From: Bifiguratus adelaidae
Lineage: Eukaryota > Mucoromycota > Endogonomycetes > Endogonales
Assembly (NCBI GenBank): GCA_002261195.1
Contig: MVBO01000104.1
Span: 1-51,068 of the forward strand
Direction of reading: 5' to 3'
Length of the DNA stretch: 51,068 bases
Below are positions 1 through 23,014 of this stretch, piece after piece (position 1 is the first letter of the stretch; the number at the start of each line of letters is the position of its first letter). Under the pieces are notes generated by a model. The model was given only the letters and a program-made list of their open reading frames with translations. It was not told where the DNA came from and searched no databases. Both the position numbers and the translations under genes were made by a program.

Positions 1-139
1 GCGGCCCGTCAGGCAGGCTTGAGGTATACCGATGTACCGTAGACTTTGAGATACCGGTTTCGGATGCGAACTTGCGGACAGAATAGCCTTTATGGTGCAG
101 CATTTTGATGTTGTTTGCCTTGGCGTTGCTGAGACCCAT
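1..139 (-). CDS. Transposase-like helix-turn-helix protein, N-terminal fragment (runs off left edge)
   Basis: On the minus strand an ATG at 139 opens a frame without stops to the window edge (about 46 residues). It reads as a homeodomain-like HTH: a first helix around NNIKMLHHKG, a second around VRKFASETG, and a recognition helix GISKSTVHRY. The spacing and the STVHR-type recognition helix are typical of the N-terminal DNA-binding domain of Tc1/mariner (IS630-like) transposases, which cut and paste into TA dinucleotides. The catalytic DDE domain would lie outside the window, so the family is inferred from the HTH alone. No terminal inverted repeat was found to its right. A cellular HTH regulator remains possible. 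Confidence 0.5.
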   Translation of the reverse strand, partial: MGLSNAKANNIKMLHHKGYSVRKFASETGISKSTVHRYTSSLPDGP

Positions 140-509
140 TGTTTGAACAAAGCTGGCTGCAGGAACGACAGTTGGGGGGCTTCTGGGGATTTTGAAGCTT
201 ATATATCGCGCGTACCTCTAGATGTTACACTAGGAACGCCATTGGCCAATGGTATGTGTACAAGGAGTTCTTGCCTTCCCAAATTTATCCGACGCGCAGG
301 GACAAACCTGTCCTAAGGAATTTATGGCCATCTAGCATTGGTTGTAACGGCACCAGAAGGGCTAAGAAGCTGAAACTCGGGCAGATAATAGCCAAAGGAC
401 ACATCTATGTCTAGTAGAAGTTTGAAATCCACACTTACTTCGGGTGCTACGCAATTACGCGTCAAAGTCAAAAATAGGCAATTCTTGGGACGGTTTTGAC
501 TGCCACTGT
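140..509. other. Unassigned flank of the HTH fragment
   Basis: This is upstream sequence of the minus-strand HTH reading frame. A short open frame on the plus strand (92-316) overlaps it antisense and has no family features. No inverted repeat, RNA gene or conserved protein was recognised. The TACAGTA/TACTGTA heptamers of the next region are absent here. Confidence 0.4.
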
Positions 510-3140
510 ACAGTATCTGCTAGCGATCTCGAGTTTCGTCACACTAAGCAACAGTGGTGGACAATATTGCACTACTGTACATATATCATTAACACAGATA
601 CAGTAAGTAATCCTGAGTAGCATAAAGTGAAATCCAAGTTGCACCAAGTTCCTTGGGTGGCATTTCTGCCCATCGTAATACCATATTCTATTAATACAGT
701 AATGCAATTTTGAGCAATGGGACACCCTACTCTCAGATGACTTCGGAGGGTGATTACAGTGCTGTACTTCGTAAAGCATAATCAACCAGCACAGAATGCT
801 TTCATTCGCAGTACAGTACAGCATCTTACCTCATCATTGCGACTACAGGTACATTACTTATAGTAAAATGCAGGTGCTCGTTCTTCTATAATTCACCTTC
901 ACTGTGCTTCAAGGCTCATTTGCGTTACAGTAACCTACTGCATACTGTAGTATACTGTACGGTACAGTAAGTGCTGTACAATACAGTGTGTCGAATCTAA
1001 ATGAAATGATGGAGTTTCTGAAAGGTGTAATTGAGTTACAGTAGTTTCTTGACACTAGCAGCTCGCAGATGACCCGGAAATGTTTACCCTAGCGATTGCA
1101 GGTACAGTACGAGTATTATAGTGCAGTCGGGCTCACAGTATACGTTTTCTACTTTTGAGCTCACTTTAACTTTGTAGACTCATGGGTACATGCATCTGGC
1201 CAATGGAATACTGTACAATCCCAACAAAGCGTAGCTTTCCATATTGAATATTGCATACTGGTACAGTACCGTATGTTCGGATCAGTGTTTGAATCTCAAT
1301 GGACGCTAACTTATACTCTCTAAGGCTACTGTAATAGCTGCGGTAGCATAGGCACTTACTGTACATATCGCACAGCAGCTGGTCGAGATTTGCATTTGGA
1401 ACGCTGTACAGTATGAGGCTTGATCTCAGCTGAAATTCGACATTACAGTAGCTGAGATGCGCTTGCTGAGACTGAGATGAGTTTAGATTTTCTTGCTAAA
1501 ATTGAGATCGACTGATATCGCATACTGTAAGTAAACAAGAAGGTTCCTTTACAGTAAATACTGTAACTGAATTTTTTCGAATCTACAGTAAGACTAATGA
1601 TCTACGTGTCCGCCATGCAAATTTACCAGAGTGCTACACTTAGTACTGTATACTGTAACAGAGAGACCAAACGAATTGAATAAGCATCGAGGTGTTACTG
1701 TACAGTATCTGAACTTGGGGTATGAAGCGATGCCTACTTCACCTGAGAACTCCGGAGTTACAGTAGAGGCTGCTGATCCCTACAACAAAGTCTCTGTGTC
1801 CAGAGCTGCCCACAATATCTAGCCAATGAACAAGCAGAATGCAGGTGTCCAAATACAGTACAGTAAGTGGGTCAAGATGTCCAAGCGTGCAGTCCGACTA
1901 GTCCTGTATTAATGTAACGCCCTAGAGCATTGGTCATACTATACTACACAGCTGTACAGCAATTCACAGTACTGTACTGTACGCTACTGTACAGTATACT
2001 GTACTCTGAAGAACCGCAGGAGTGTACTGTACAGTATGAGCTGGAGTAACCGAAATCAACACTGGACTGCAATATGGAAGGTTGGGCTCGAGTAGCGTGC
2101 AAACCAAAACACACGGTACTGTATCACATCTACAGTATTTCCCCAACAGTATGACGACTACCACGCAGAACACATTACAGTACTGTACAGTGCCCGAACC
2201 GCAAGTCCGTTTGTTGTAGTACTGTACGGTAATACTGCACTGTATCTTTGCGGCTTCAAGAACATCCACACTAGCAGTGTCGTCGAATATTGCGTTGTGT
2301 TATACAGTACAATAGATGGAGAGACATTGACTTAAAGTACTGTAAATCCATAGCTCCCGCGAAATCAGACCGGAGGAAACCAAAATAACATTGAGGAATG
2401 GGGATGCATGCTGTACTGTAGTACAGTAAGTACAGTAAGTGCGCATGCAAATATGTCTGAAATACAAGGCGTAGCATCACAATTGCAGTGGTTTTTTTGG
2501 TTGCGATCCAACCTGCAACTACTGTACAGTACTGTATCACCGATCCTTATGGGAGTCACTTGTATACACTATGCTCTTACAGTACTGTACTTTAGTATAT
2601 TTACCCTTTATAGTCAAGGAAAATCACTACAGTATACCGAAAGATGATATACTGTATTGCGCTTCTAGAAGACAGTAGATGAGACTACGTGACTTGTGAC
2701 AACAGTATACTGTACTGTAAGCCATACAGGATATCCATGATACAGGCACAATCTCTCAATTAGGGCAATTGGGAGCGTGTGGAGCGTAGCACCCGCAGCG
2801 AGCGCAATACTGTAGCTCTAATACTGTACGTTGTAGTATACAGTAGCTTACAGTATTTACTGTACAGTATTACTGAGATCTAAAGTTCATGTACAATGCA
2901 GTATACAGTATTCTGTACAGTAAGTTCCTTGTAAACGTTTGCATCTTGTTGCCAACTTTAAAGTAACACTACTACTCTTCAGATGCAAACCCTAAGAGTC
3001 ACGAAGCCTTGTCATACAGTAGATGAGCCTCCATTGGTCGCTGTTGCGTAATAGAATGTGCAATTGAACGGTTACCAAGGCTAAAGTGCCCTCTATGCAA
3101 TATGAACAACACTACATGACATACTGTAAGCTGTACAGTA
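510..3140. repeat. Dense field of TACAGTA / TACTGTA heptamers
   Basis: By eye I count roughly 65 copies of TACAGTA or its complement TACTGTA in about 2.6 kb, in about equal orientation. Two specific heptamers would be expected by chance about 0.3 times in this length. Spacing is irregular and the sequence between copies is unique, so this is not a tandem array. Some copies share their TA with the next: TACTGTACAGTA (perfect palindrome) at 1696-1707, 1985-1996, 2025-2036, 2520-2531 and 2858-2869; TACAGTACAGTA at 1854-1865; TACTGTACTGTA at 1970-1981. The heptamers equal the canonical excision footprint of Sleeping Beauty-type Tc1/mariner elements. Open frames here are short, on both strands, and show no family. 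Only the motif field is certain; its origin is inference. Confidence 0.9.
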
Positions 3141-4850
3141 GATTGAGTGCAATATGACGGCACGAATGATACATGTTAGGGAGGATATCATTGAATAGAA
3201 CATAGTAGACGTCGGAGTGTTGTACAGAGAGATAACGATGGCAAAAAACCACATCTATAACATCAATCACGACATAGGCAGATGCATTATGATATCTAAT
3301 ACTTAACCAAAGTAGCCTGACACAGCACAAATAACAAGACATATCGCGACATTCTTTTAAGCACCTACAGGCCCTATACAAAAAATTATGGGCAATGTCA
3401 TCATGGGCATCTACGTTAGCTTTGCGACTAAGCCAGGACAGGAAGAGCTGACAGGTGTCGGGAAGCAGGGCTAGCAGAACCAGAAGACTAGGATAGAGAC
3501 CCAAGAGCGGGTTAGAATGGGTAGCTTTGTTAATGAAAGGGAATACACGTTCTATTGTTCATATACATGTGCAAACAGAAAATAGTTAGGAAATTCGCTG
3601 AGAGATGATTGGTATGCAAAAGAGACCGGAGGGCGTGCTGATATTGAATTGATCTTGGGGTTTGAGAGGTAAGCCGAACAATTGAGACATGAACTCATGC
3701 AAGTCGAAATGAGTAGTGAGCAACTTGAACGGCGAAGACCCAAAGCAAAGGTGTATCATTGAGCTCTTACTGCAGGTTATATTGATACATCGCTGGGTTA
3801 TAAAACCGCGTGGTCGTCGAGAGCGAAGCATGCAAACGCTGCAAGCAGAATAATGCACACCAAATTTGGCAATCAGAAGTATCGGCTTGTAGAGGCGATG
3901 ACCTACAGTGAGCACTACGTGCTTGCAATATTTACGAAAGCTTCTTGTCATATCTAGCTATGAACGCGGACTAGCTGCTGCGTATGACCTGAACTGCTCA
4001 CACGCAAGGTCCGATTAGCAAACTTCCGTTGCGACGTCGATCACGGCACGAAAAGCAGTGTGTACATCATATTCTTCAGCTGTAATTACATGTGCCATTA
4101 CATTGACACGATGAAGACTGGTGTAGGCGACTATTCTGACAGTCGTGTAAGAAGATGTCAGCTTGGCGTCTGACCTGACGGTTTATGAATTCAATCGATG
4201 GAAAATGCCTTCCTCCTTCGACTTGATCCTCACTTACACTGAATTAAGGTTATATTGGCAGATAAAGGTGGACGTTACTCTCAAATTGTTCCCTTTCTTA
4301 CCTACGGCCATTCACCAGTGAAACGAATGTTGAATACCTGAAATCCAAGGAACCACCTCGTACCTTGTTTCTCTCATCCAGTCTATAAAAGCTGATTAGA
4401 TTCGTTGTCATGTTCATCGTGAAGAGCGTTGCAGTCAGCGACGACGCAACCTGCAGAGCATTGATATCCTCAGCATATGTAGCGCCGTTGCAAAGATACG
4501 GACACAATCTTGTCCGCTAAGTGCTCGTAGTACTACAGAATTTTCGTACTTGCTGCTGTATAGAATCGCTCAGATGAGGGTTCTCTAGTACTCCGATTTG
4601 GCAGCTTTGCTTTCTCCATCATATGACGAAGCCATTGTCCCTTCAGACAACTGAAGCTCATGCCATATCCAAGGGTTTGATGCGTTCCACCTGAAAAACC
4701 AGTATGTTGCCTGTTTTGGTTAGGGACGCGCAAACGGCGGACGGTTAAAAGTTAGTGGTTAGGAGCTTTGACCATTTAAGGTATCTCGATCCTGCGTGGC
4801 CCATCCCCTGGATTATAAGAAGTGCAGCCAACTCTCTAATTTTGACAGCT
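3141..4850. other. Gene-poor stretch upstream of xanthine dehydrogenase
   Basis: This 1.7 kb stretch lacks the heptamers of the region to its left. It has several minus-strand open frames of 60-130 codons (for example 3112-3504, 3586-3951, 4298-4507 and 4533-4733). None shows a domain, a convincing exon chain or composition like the genes to the right. A decayed gene cannot be excluded. The last few hundred bases presumably hold the promoter of the xanthine dehydrogenase gene. No tRNA or structured RNA was recognised. Confidence 0.4.
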
Positions 4851-7800
4851 ATGCCTCCTAACATTGGATATCACGGAGAAGCTGACGGGCGTGTTCCCGG
4901 GATCGTCACTGACGACAGCATACTATTCTTTTTAAATGGCCAGAAGGTCACTTTGAGCAATCCAGACCCCGAGACAACTGTATTGCAATATTTGCGTGCA
5001 CAAGGTCTTACAGGAACTAAGCTTGGTTGCGGCCAAGGTGGCTGCGGAGCATGCACCATTGTCGTCGCGGAAATACAAGATGCGGACGGCAGAGCGGAGC
5101 CGAGGTATGAATTTGAGACTCATTTAGACTGTTCTAACTTTTTCTCGAACGCAGGTACTCGCCGCAGCTAGCTTGTCTGACACCGTTGTCATACATGCAC
5201 AGCAAGCACATCATCACAATTGAAGGAGTGGGCACGGCCGATAGTCCGCATCCAATTCAAGAACGTATAGCCTTGTTGCATGGCTCTCAATGTGGATTTT
5301 GTACACCTGGGATGGTCATGAGCTTGTACGCGGCAATGAGAGAGTCACACAGAAAGCAGAGCGAACTCAGCGAGGAAGAGATCGAGCGAACGTTTGATGG
5401 TAATCTGTGTCGCTGCACCGGATATAGGCCGATTCTCGACGCTGGTAAGCCAAACTTCAACCATATTGGAGGATACTGAACAAAATGTTATTCTTACTGC
5501 AGCGAAAAGTGTAAGTCACCACATCTGATCTCCTCGTATTTTCTTCTTACTGCCTAGAATTGACCATGCTTCACTTAGATAAACAAGGAAAGGACAATGG
5601 CTGGTGCTATTGGATGCGGCGAGGAGAATTGCTGTCAATTGACCAGCTCAGAGCCTGTTCCTTCTGATTGTCTGGTTGACTTGACATTTCCAAAGGTAAT
5701 CGACAGCTCCCTCGTGCCAATGCTTACATGACTGCAATACCCCAGGTCGAGTTCAAACATTACGATCAGACTCAGGATTTGATATTTCCGCCTTATCTTG
5801 CAAACCACAAGGAGTTACAGCGAAACTGTTTGCATCTGGTTTCGAAACGTCACACCGGTGCCACATTCGAATGGTTTAGTCCAAGTGACATGGAAGGATT
5901 AAGCAAGATTAAGGCCCAACGTCCAAATGCCCGGATGATTGCTGGAAACACCGCCGCTGGTCTTAATGCGTTCCTAGAAAGCAAAGATAACCGACGTTTT
6001 TCAAGGTCCGAATCTGAATCAGTGATTTGGATAGGTCGTATCAAAGATATGCAGCAGCAGGAACTCGGGAGCCATTCAAAGGGTGGAGAAGGAGTCTGGG
6101 TTGGAGCAGGATGTAATATGGAGCAATTCAAACAATGTCTCCAGGCTGGATCCGAAAAGGTACGTGTCCCAACCAATCCAATATTTCACGAATGATGTAT
6201 TCATTTTGGTTACCGCTAGTACAGACAACCATCAATTTATAAAGCGTTTTTGAAAAGCCTTGATACTTATGCCAGTGCCCAAATCAGAAGCATGGCAACT
6301 GTTGGGGGTACCGTAATCCTAGGAGCAAATTTTTCGGTATGTTTGCCGTGATTATTACGCTATCTTGTCTAAGTCACTCCGTTCGTTGCCTCACCAGGAT
6401 CTAAATCCGCTCTTTATTATTTCCAATTCAAGGGCACGTATCTATTCGCTCAAATCTCAACGATTTCGAGACTTGCTGGTCTCCGACTTGTTTCCAACAA
6501 CAAGGGAGAGCAATCCTGGACGACCTCTAAGCGGGGATCGACGGCAGCCTTTAAATAATTTCGACCCAAACGATGACGTATTGCACGCCATTTTCATACC
6601 GCAGAAGTGTTGCGCATCGAAAGACACCAAAGAGTATGTCCAATTTTATCGTCAATCGAAAAGACATTACGCCTCGCTTTCAAGTGTGAACTTAGCCGTG
6701 CGCGTAAATCTCTCTTCAGAGAAAAAAATCAGCGATATGGCTGTCGCGTTTGGAGGTGAAGAAGTGTTGCAAGGACCCACGCAATCTCGCTCTTTTGAGT
6801 TTAGTCAAGACTTGTGCAGAGAGATATGGAGCGATCAAACTACTTTACAGGCGCTCATTGTGAAAATTGAAAAGATCATGCAGAAAGTTACCGTGGGTGC
6901 CGCGAATGAAGACGACGACCAGGCGTATCGACGAAGGAAACGATTTGTTTCAAGCGTCATGGCCGGATTCATGATGCGTTTGTGGTCCACCATAAGGAAT
7001 GATCTGGGTGATCAGTCAAACAAGGAGAAGTCGATGTCGCCTGCTGAAGAAATCCATCCGGGAACAAACAAGACAACTCACGATGTTTTGCAATTTAGGT
7101 GAGTTCCCGTCTCAAAGATCCCCAGTCCCTAATTGGAAATTGTAATTGGCAATCGTAGCAAAGAGCACGAGATCCTCGGAAAACCTTTGCCACACACAAC
7201 AGCCTTGAGTCAATCAACCGGAGAAGCAATCTATGTGAACGATATGCCCAAGGCTGATCGTGAAGCTTACGGATATATGGTGGTTTCGGAGAGACCACAC
7301 GCTTTCATCACTAGTATCGATGCTTCAGCTGCATTGTCCATACCCGGCGTTCTTACCTTCATCACTGGTGACGATATTCCAAATTCAAAGCGCATGTTTG
7401 AACCCAGGATGAAGCTGGATGAAGAATATTTTCCCCGCGAAGTCGTCTCTGTTGGTATGAATGTTATCTCGGGCTCCCACAAATCTCCTTACAGACATAT
7501 TGCAGGCACAAGTATTGGTATGATTGTGGCAGAATCCGCAGAGCTTGCACAGGAAGCTTCTCGACTCGTTAAAGTCACCTATCAAGATTTACCGGCTGTG
7601 CTTACACTTGATGTAAGTAAATCCATGGAGAGATGATTGCTGATAAGATACAGGATGCTATTGCTCAAGGCTCCTTTTGGAGCGAGGAGATGGTTGTCGA
7701 ACAAGGGGACTTTGAGGGTCAAATGAAGGCAGCAGACGTAGTATTCGATGGTATATTATGCGCTCTATATAGCGACAGCATTTGCTAAACCATGCCGTTG

Positions 7801-21411: not shown

Positions 21412-23014
21412 CTACTGAGGCAAAGCAAAGACTTGTGAAATGGCTTCATCACCACAGGTGGTCAGCGTAGCTTTGCCCGTCTTGTCTTGTGTAAGGCAAA
21501 GTTTAGAAGCAGCGTTGACGAGGTTACCAGACCACTCATAGCTCCATTGTTGGCTGGTTGACGTACTGCAACGTTGTGCGACCATGTTACTGCCGGACAC
21601 GCCAAGACAGGTTTGAGGAGAGGACAGGAGACGAACTGTTTTGTCAGCATGGATTTGGAAGATTTGCTTGTCACTGGCATCGCAGGTACCAAACGTGGCC
21701 TTTTTGCCACTTTGAAGGCACTTTAAGGTCTGAGTGTTGAAGATTTGGCCTGTTGCCGAGACATTCTTGCAGTTGGCACTTGGGGTCACTCGGTAGACGG
21801 CTGTACTGTGGGATTCGAGATTATTGATACCAATGCTGTCTGTCACCTTGGTGGTGTTGCCAGTCCAAAGATCCTTGGCGCTAAAAGAGCATCCCGAACC
21901 CGTGAAACCGAGCTTGCTCATGGGAACCGTGATAGAGGCAGAGGTTGTGCCCTTGTTGAGCACCGTCAAAGCGCGATCACCATTGGCCAGGTTCTTGCTG
22001 AGCAAATCAAAAACGGGATCTTGACTGATCAAGGTAGCTTGGCTTACAAGAGGATCCTGGTCAAGCGCAATGAGATCCTTGTTGGTGAGATAGTCAATCT
22101 CATCTTGGCTCAAATCGGGGACATAGCCACTAATGATCAATGGAGCCGAGAACGAGGCCCAGAGAGCAAAATGAGACTTCTTCTCGGTCAGCGTGAGATT
22201 CCAGTCACCGGCCGTGATAAAGTCAGGATCATTGACGTAGCCGGGACGTTGATAGCGAGCGAGAAGCACCTCGTACCCGTAATTGATCATGACACTGTCC
22301 CATTTCGTGACACCCCCGTCGTTGTTGCCATAAGTATAGTAAACCTCAATATCATTCGAATGACGTGCCAATTGACCATAATATGGTACCCAATCCATTA
22401 CCTTGTACCAGTCGGTATTGTTCTTGGTACCAGAAAAGTAGGCTGGAGCCGATTCGGAAAACACGAGGGGTTGTTCCATCTTCCTCAAGACATCATGCCA
22501 ATGTCCGTAAATTTGCTGGTATCTCTCTTCGTCCGTTTGTCCTGGTAGCGGCGAAACGTAACAACCATCCAATTTTCAGGTAAGAGATACCCCATGAAGC
22601 AAATGTTTGCGCATCGAGTTCTTCGTGGCCCAAAGAACCTGGATATCCACCGCAGGTCAGGTTACCAGCGTCCGAGTAGATACCAAACTTCATGCCATGA
22701 TCCTTGATGTATTGTCCCAGCCAGATAAGACCGGCCGGGAAGAGGGCTGGATTCCATTGAAGAGAACCATTGGCAGCGCGTTCGTGGATTGGCCAGCAAT
22801 CATCAATATTAAAGTACTCGTACCCGGCCTTGACCAGACCTCTGGAGGCCATCGCATCGATCGTATCAGTGAACAAGGTCTGATTGACATTGCATTCAAA
22901 GCGCGCCCAGGGATTGAAACCCATAGGAGGTAAGGGCTGTAGAATACTACCCATCACTTGTTGAAAGGATGCCAGGGAGGTCATGGTCACAACAACGCGA
23001 GAAAAGGACGGCAT
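21412..23014 (-). CDS. Secreted alpha-galactosidase (GH27) with C-terminal ricin-B-type lectin domain; one-base frameshift
   Basis: Hydrolyses terminal alpha-1,6-galactose from oligosaccharides and galactomannans outside the cell. The hydrophobic N-terminus (MPSFSRVVVTMTSLASF) is a likely signal peptide. GH27 blocks follow: PPMGFNPWARFECN, YFNIDDCW, HGMKFGIYSDAG and HEELDAQTFASWGISYLK. The reading frame then shifts by one base at 22569-22570, exactly where the family nucleophile motif YLKxDGCY should be. The frame continues as DGCYVSPLPGQTDEERY with no further stop for about 385 codons. ARHSNDI is the likely site of the acid/base Asp. The C-terminal 130 residues form a ricin-B-type carbohydrate-binding module (CLQSGKK, CLGVSG, QQWSY, CLTQDK). 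Either a sequencing error or a very recent inactivation. Outside the shift the protein looks intact. Confidence 0.88.

Follow-up and report, generated by a model that had tools for sequence, protein, structure and literature searches.

The window analysed here is the entire contig MVBO01000104.1 (C7; 51,068 bp) of the soil fungus Bifiguratus adelaidae (Mucoromycotina, Endogonales), whose genome comprises 18.63 Mb in 286 contigs. It carries 65 copies of the heptamer TACWGTA, every one starting within positions 509-3134, and none in the other 48 kb, raising the question of what could have written the same seven bases so many times into one short stretch of DNA. From the base composition of the field itself 0.48 copies would be expected by chance, and under an order-2 model of positions 3141-51068, 2.77 are expected and 0 seen. 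A preliminary description had located the cluster, called its spacing irregular and its orientation equal, and read each heptamer as a 5-bp scar in an ancestral TA, left by repeated local hopping of a Tc1/mariner transposon. It is highly probable that the heptamers are indeed excision footprints, left by a Tc1/mariner transposon resembling Sleeping Beauty.

The heptamer field and the adjoining transposon

The described appearance of the cluster agrees with the counts, as gaps between window heptamers range unevenly from 5 to 117 bp and the orientations are divided into 34 TACAGTA and 31 TACTGTA. Eleven neighbouring heptamers lie at a distance of 5 bp, i.e. with one TA in common. The surrounding DNA had also been called otherwise unique, which is mostly correct. 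Once scars are removed, however, 19% of the field finds alignments in other field segments of the genome, an incomplete ~120-bp repeated module among them, and the left side of the field is occupied by the end of a Tc1-type element rather than by free DNA (Table 1). Tandem Repeats Finder gave no rows, no known RNA family was found in the window, and the heptamer could be ruled out as part of a longer conserved motif, the window flanks sharing no sequence beyond neighbouring scars. Among the open frames of the window, one of 148 aa at 3115-3558 (minus strand) gave no match in a Pfam search, the later frames of the neighbour gene at 4749 resemble xanthine dehydrogenase by eye, and an inositol-phosphate synthase frame is also present.

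Table 1. Positions of the heptamer field and adjacent features in the window
Feature	Position	Strand	Basis or remark
Tc1/mariner-type element end	1..508	-	blastn to L029; truncated by contig start
Transposase, first 46 codons (MGLSNAKANNIKMLHHKGYSVRK...)	2..139	-	translation; same L029 region matches helix-turn-helix models, next piece DDE_3
Scar field, 65 TACWGTA	509..3140	.	198 TA sites after scar removal
Junction: TA target duplication of the element, then CAGTA scar	509..515	.	sequence at 504-515 is CACTG/TA/CAGTA
Start of ~120-bp repeated module (GTGTGACGA...GCTAGCAGATA)	511..544	-	reverse complement against module alignment, by eye
Partial ~120-bp module, scars at 1523, 1550, 1559, 1584	about 1523..1638	+	alignment scores
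Unscarred flank: 104 TA, 0 heptamers	3141..4748	.	reaches first recognised exon
First recognised exon of neighbour gene, 2Fe-2S domain	4749..5168	+	Pfam Fer2, E 3e-13; outside the feature

The window element is 93% identical over about 515 bp to a 1.62-kb copy (L029) on contig C167. Its outer end, CAGTGGCAGTCAAAACCGTCCC, stops exactly at the first window heptamer, and the order of the pieces suggests that the element was inserted at a TA with an older scar. The preliminary description had made its scar reading depend on the existence of a full element with CAGT...ACTG ends, and L029, which itself lies in a field, has such ends with TA on both sides. It displays the inverted repeats (211 bp, 72% alike) and TA target duplication of Tc1/mariner elements, together with a DDE/D transposase bearing an N-terminal helix-turn-helix; DDE_3 scores 57.2 bits (cut-off 28.6), and several helix-turn-helix models pass their cut-offs, with HTH_Tnp_Tc3_2 failing (27.3 of 31.5 bits). 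The coding region of L029 is broken by an internal stop into pieces of 139 and 217 aa, and no intact full-length transposase was found among the element copies whose frames were examined, other frames measuring at most 243 aa. For the 243-aa open frame of the copy on C139, the sole PDB match at E <= 0.001 was Sleeping Beauty SB100X (E 2.6e-22).

The first 500 bases of the element match 34 places in the genome, 28 of them on contigs with a sampled field or listed scars. Heptamers adjoin the matches on C209 (5 in 601 bp) and C93 (4 in 801 bp), and the remaining four lie on C261 (two), C262 and C280, contigs outside the sampled set. Since element sequence in the 28 loci counted has few heptamers (9 in 11,787 bp), most scars probably predate most of the element copies now present. 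Of the DDE_3 genes outside fields, the one on C177 was inspected for inverted repeats; it gave no evidence of a second source, as 2.1 kb around it contained a single heptamer and no inverted repeat.

Heptamers as five-base-pair units

TACWGTA is not generally enriched in the genome (3,077 copies versus 4,433 of its reversed control). Fields were defined by four or more heptamers spaced no more than 400 bp apart; by this rule 38 clusters were recognised in 28 loci, and their 1,412 heptamers in 72.8 kb make up 46% of the genomic total in 0.4% of its length. A check of heptamer density elsewhere, which had been proposed together with the scar reading, thus revealed dozens of fields, with 19.4 heptamers per kb (1,412 in 72,754 bp) versus 0.22 per kb in the other flank (34 in 152,213 bp). 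These 28 loci derive from 30 sampled stretches (L005-L034), two of which (L033 and L034) turned out to be non-field, and the survey is a lower bound, with the matching contigs C173, C199, C233, C261, C262, C279 and C280 lying outside the sampled set. The doubled heptamer TACWGTACWGTA occurs 274 times versus 21 for its reverse, and the tripled one 40 times versus 0; among the matches listed, they are mostly clustered, with many clusters at contig ends. Doubled heptamers on C57 and C135 were ruled out as fields (three and four heptamers, respectively, in 4.5 kb each). Field sequence is mostly unique, but some parts recur in other fields; comparison of L005-L034 with one another gave 1,014 aligned pieces, counting those in elements.

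All scar comparisons concern paralogous copies within one genome, with overlapping, non-independent pairwise pieces. At least 27 copies of the ~120-bp module lie on 16 contigs, each of which shows scars in the sampled reads, and BLAST located one further copy on C8. Copies such as L022:4496-4625 are sharp-ended, and the module was seen only on contigs with scar fields; an Rfam search of L022:4300-4800 around it gave no match, and a solo element or a motif of the domain are the candidate readings. In the alignment of 27 copies, a CWGTA insert at TA is present in some and absent in others, and the empty sites lack the heptamer, which excludes it as a pre-existing target consensus. Once scars were removed, the alignment of 25 copies was left with few gaps. 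Single TA columns hold A, T, TA or TT scars in different copies, and several hits at such shared columns look independent. Other module scars are common by descent (the L010, L014, L016 and L018 copies), and the 1,403 scars analysed below are not all separate events, some having been copied along with the module. In the window, the element interrupts the copy at the left edge at a particular TA; of the 22 aligned copies that keep this TA, 9 carry a scar there. Scar removal from the second window copy raised its alignment scores against three other copies, whose own scars were removed both before and after, from 6 to 44, 28 to 51 and 21 to 55.

The same behaviour was found across fields when each TACWGTA was replaced by TA in 42 element-free field segments (75,554 bp with 1,403 heptamers). 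The summed alignment score rose from 27,962 to 34,961 bits (+25%), 5-bp gaps fell from 244 to 142 and those of 10 bp from 48 to 3. When 5-bp deletions were instead placed at random after TA, four number-matched sets gave 13,491 to 14,753 bits, deletions displaced by 3, 8, 15 or -18 bp gave 12,410 to 18,884 bits, and masking of the heptamer middles gave 22,966 bits. For deletion sizes of 0 to 7 the scores were 27,962, 26,685, 28,281, 29,643, 29,405, 34,961, 27,484 and 25,252 bits, with the peak at 5 and the runner-up at 3. The 142 five-bp gaps left after removal are read as decayed scars, which does not explain all of them.

In individual alignments, a clean 5-bp gap stands opposite the heptamer in 248 of 1,320 aligned cells, and opposite eleven control words in 10 of 171 (4 of the ten at AGTWACT, 5 at TACSGTA). 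The other heptamer cells comprise 68 untidy 5-bp gaps, 531 other gaps, 189 substitutions and 234 + 50 unchanged cells; the 531 are read as misplaced gaps and multiple scars, a reading that the removal test supports in sum rather than case by case. Between dense field parts, gaps number 217 at 5 bp, 38 at 10, 66 at 4 and 33 at 6, and in the BLAST placement 120 of the 255 that measure 5 or 10 bp consist exactly of (CWGTA)n at TA. Pairs that are not both dense show a weaker 5-bp spike (268 at 5 bp, 160 at 4 and 66 at 6; 147 of 314 gaps exactly (CWGTA)n), since this class includes sparser field parts and elements.

The 5-bp presence/absence differences at TA predicted from the scar reading therefore exist between paralogs. 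Heptamers evolving by point mutation instead of 5-bp indels had been named as evidence to the contrary; the 189 substituted cells do change in this way, as expected of old scars, alongside the 5-bp units. Examined between paralogs, the refuting conditions left the scar reading standing. TACWGTA behaves as a net insertion of CAGTA or CTGTA at TA, as in an excision footprint. The claim of equal orientation also extends to the fields at large, the middle base being A in 670 and T in 733 of the 1,403 scars (p = 0.098). Footprint repair involves an A-A mismatch between the two 3-nt overhangs, and such a balance is expected if this mismatch is repaired either way.

The number of scars per TA site, from 0 to 6, is 4581, 959, 174, 26, 3, 0 and 1 (n = 5,744), with 20% of sites, about one in five, bearing at least one intact scar. 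Nested re-insertion describes these runs far better than independent hits do, although imperfectly: a geometric model that treats all TAs, whether original or created by a scar, as equal targets gives chi2 7.6 and is rejected at p 0.022, versus chi2 60 (p 9e-14) for a Poisson model of independent hits on original sites. Scarred TAs are enriched for A at -3 and T at +4 (0.39 versus 0.26), a bias likewise seen in Sleeping Beauty, whose target preference is ANNTANNT. One-mismatch heptamers in the fields number 1,028 versus 161.6 expected from the flanks, and many scars are therefore old and decaying. RIP-like mutation was rejected as the main source of the TA excess, as TpA/ApT drops from 1.26 in fields to 1.01 after scar removal; it is 0.88 in fields with one-mismatch heptamers masked, 0.80 in window positions 3141-4748 and 0.62 in 3141-51068.

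These data also bear on readings that dispense with excision. If the heptamer were the selected recognition site of a dimeric protein, in an origin, centromere or silencing element, a dense, confined and near-palindromic motif, sharp field edges and AT-richer sequence (GC of 0.41 in fields versus 0.48 in the rest of the window) would all be understandable. Such an array is nevertheless extremely unlikely, because the sites are gained and lost as whole 5-bp units at TA, their run lengths favour nested re-insertion over independent sites, the one-mismatch relics bear no sign of retention, and the fields also harbour matching transposon ends. Units as short and as many as those observed could come from very short MITEs or from template-copied microinsertions; however, shared flank is limited to neighbouring scars and the weak A(-3)/T(+4) bias, the unit is the known Sleeping Beauty footprint (available text of PMC4378557), and a matching element is present, leaving this source of CWGTA hardly credible.

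According to the favoured footprint model, the element would insert at TA and duplicate it, and its excision would leave CAG or CTG, the terminal 3 nt, between two TAs, converting TA into TACAGTA or TACTGTA. Each scar provides two TAs, and the run statistics show that later insertions hit scars about as readily as original TAs, so that re-hit scars grew into runs such as TACTGTACAGTACTGTA. The process was restricted to a few dozen short, bounded domains, where a fifth or so of the TA sites came to bear an intact scar, and the many decayed scars suggest that it was long-lasting.

Field boundaries and genomic surroundings

The footprint mechanism by itself does not account for the confinement to domains. 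Across 76 field edges, the number of heptamers per TA is flat, at 0.17-0.20, from 1,500 bp inside to the edge, and outside it is 0.046 in the first 250 bp and 0.002-0.015 thence to 3,000 bp; the edge definition sharpens this drop, and the flat interior is independent of it. As density is flat inside and stops at the edge, a bounded target domain is likely, rather than plain local hopping. The confinement may most readily be attributed to local chromatin, with the transposase tethered or the DNA open there.

The footprints might alternatively stem from distance-graded local hopping combined with the loss of genic insertions, without a special target domain. Local hopping is described as common to cut-and-paste transposons in the available text of PMC7827188, and several fields have recognised genes within a few kb, yet this alternative is unlikely in view of the density profile and of the window flank next to the field, where 1.6 kb with 104 TA carries no scar before the exon at 4749. 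The local hopping windows of Sleeping Beauty given in the same text, up to 15 Mb, are moreover far wider than the fields. The repeated local hopping originally proposed thus stands as far as repeated re-insertion near earlier sites is concerned, a feature shared with cut-and-paste transposons; it does not extend to a gradient, since density ends at the edge of dozens of fields instead of declining with distance. Separately, a 73% identical stretch between window positions 3020-3403 and L015:4412-4765 crosses the window field edge and lies outside the field in L015, and the window edge is therefore not simply the end of an inserted element.

Retrotransposon pieces occur near several fields, with RVT_1 on C29, RNase H on C91 and weak reverse transcriptase matches on C221; integrase matches near fields on C152 and C128 are below the Pfam cut-off. 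Pieces beside or between fields were seen at L014:6127-6726, L018:762-1253, L021:295-1113 and L009:7158-7667. The 500-bp bins around the L014, L018 and L021 pieces contain no or few heptamers, and these pieces may therefore have inserted after most scars formed. Other fields have ordinary genes within a few kb (BCDHK on C96, P450 on C114, aldehyde dehydrogenase on C139), and 7 of the 20 open frames searched gave no Pfam match.

Compact fungal centromeres and AT-rich heterochromatic islands form a comparison class for such domains, the likeness resting here on sequence. The fields resemble them in being AT-richer and in lying, in some cases, near retrotransposon pieces. No contig in the four complete pattern listings has two distant clusters, as would be expected of one region per chromosome, but many fields lie at contig ends. 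A 511-aa open frame matches the CENP-C C-terminal domain (C38:22315-22464; 50.7 bits against a cut-off of 29), and B. adelaidae thus appears to keep CENP-C. The only (TTAGGG)4 matches in the assembly are four overlapping ones at C256:4-45 and one at 21516-21539 of the same contig, which is outside the field contigs seen, making this search uninformative on a subtelomeric location. The AT-rich fields, their retrotransposon neighbours and the restriction of the module to scarred contigs would suit heterochromatin or centromeres. It is tentatively conceivable that the fields are centromeric or heterochromatic cores to which the transposon is confined and which its scars lengthen and enrich in AT. 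If so, each scar would be a further target, transposon traffic would build the DNA that it inhabits, and the scars would record at base resolution how far the domain reaches and how it developed.

Relation to Sleeping Beauty and implications

The B. adelaidae element shares with Sleeping Beauty and other Tc1-like elements the TA target, CAGT...ACTG ends and long inverted repeats, as well as a DDE_3 transposase, for which SB100X of Sleeping Beauty is the only PDB match. Direct repeats are located inside each inverted repeat of Sleeping Beauty. In L029 the search did not recover this layout: a single inner match to the outer motif was seen (17 bp, 194-210 with 1592-1608, E 0.027), which aligns on one strand with the far end of the element and so faces against its own outer end. 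The heptamers agree with known footprints, since the consensus Sleeping Beauty footprints in the available text of PMC4378557 are TACAGTA and TACTGTA, remobilisation inserting 5 bp, and 3-nt excision overhangs are given in that of PMC7827188. Scars of this type are already known. Sleeping Beauty footprints are presented in the same part of PMC4378557 as single events in tumour cells, in contrast to the more than 1,400 intact, nested and field-bound footprints in 72.8 kb of the B. adelaidae reference genome; no description of such a dense, nested and domain-bounded array was found in the listed titles and abstract openings of the openly licensed literature searched.

Excision footprints are usually encountered as isolated events. 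Their density here allows target preference, re-insertion into scars, decay and domain edges to be followed within a single genome. How cut-and-paste transposons come to occupy harmless zones of a compact genome becomes testable, as does the question of whether transposon traffic itself shapes centromeric or heterochromatic DNA. In this early-diverging fungus, the scars could also provide a natural map of a chromatin domain.
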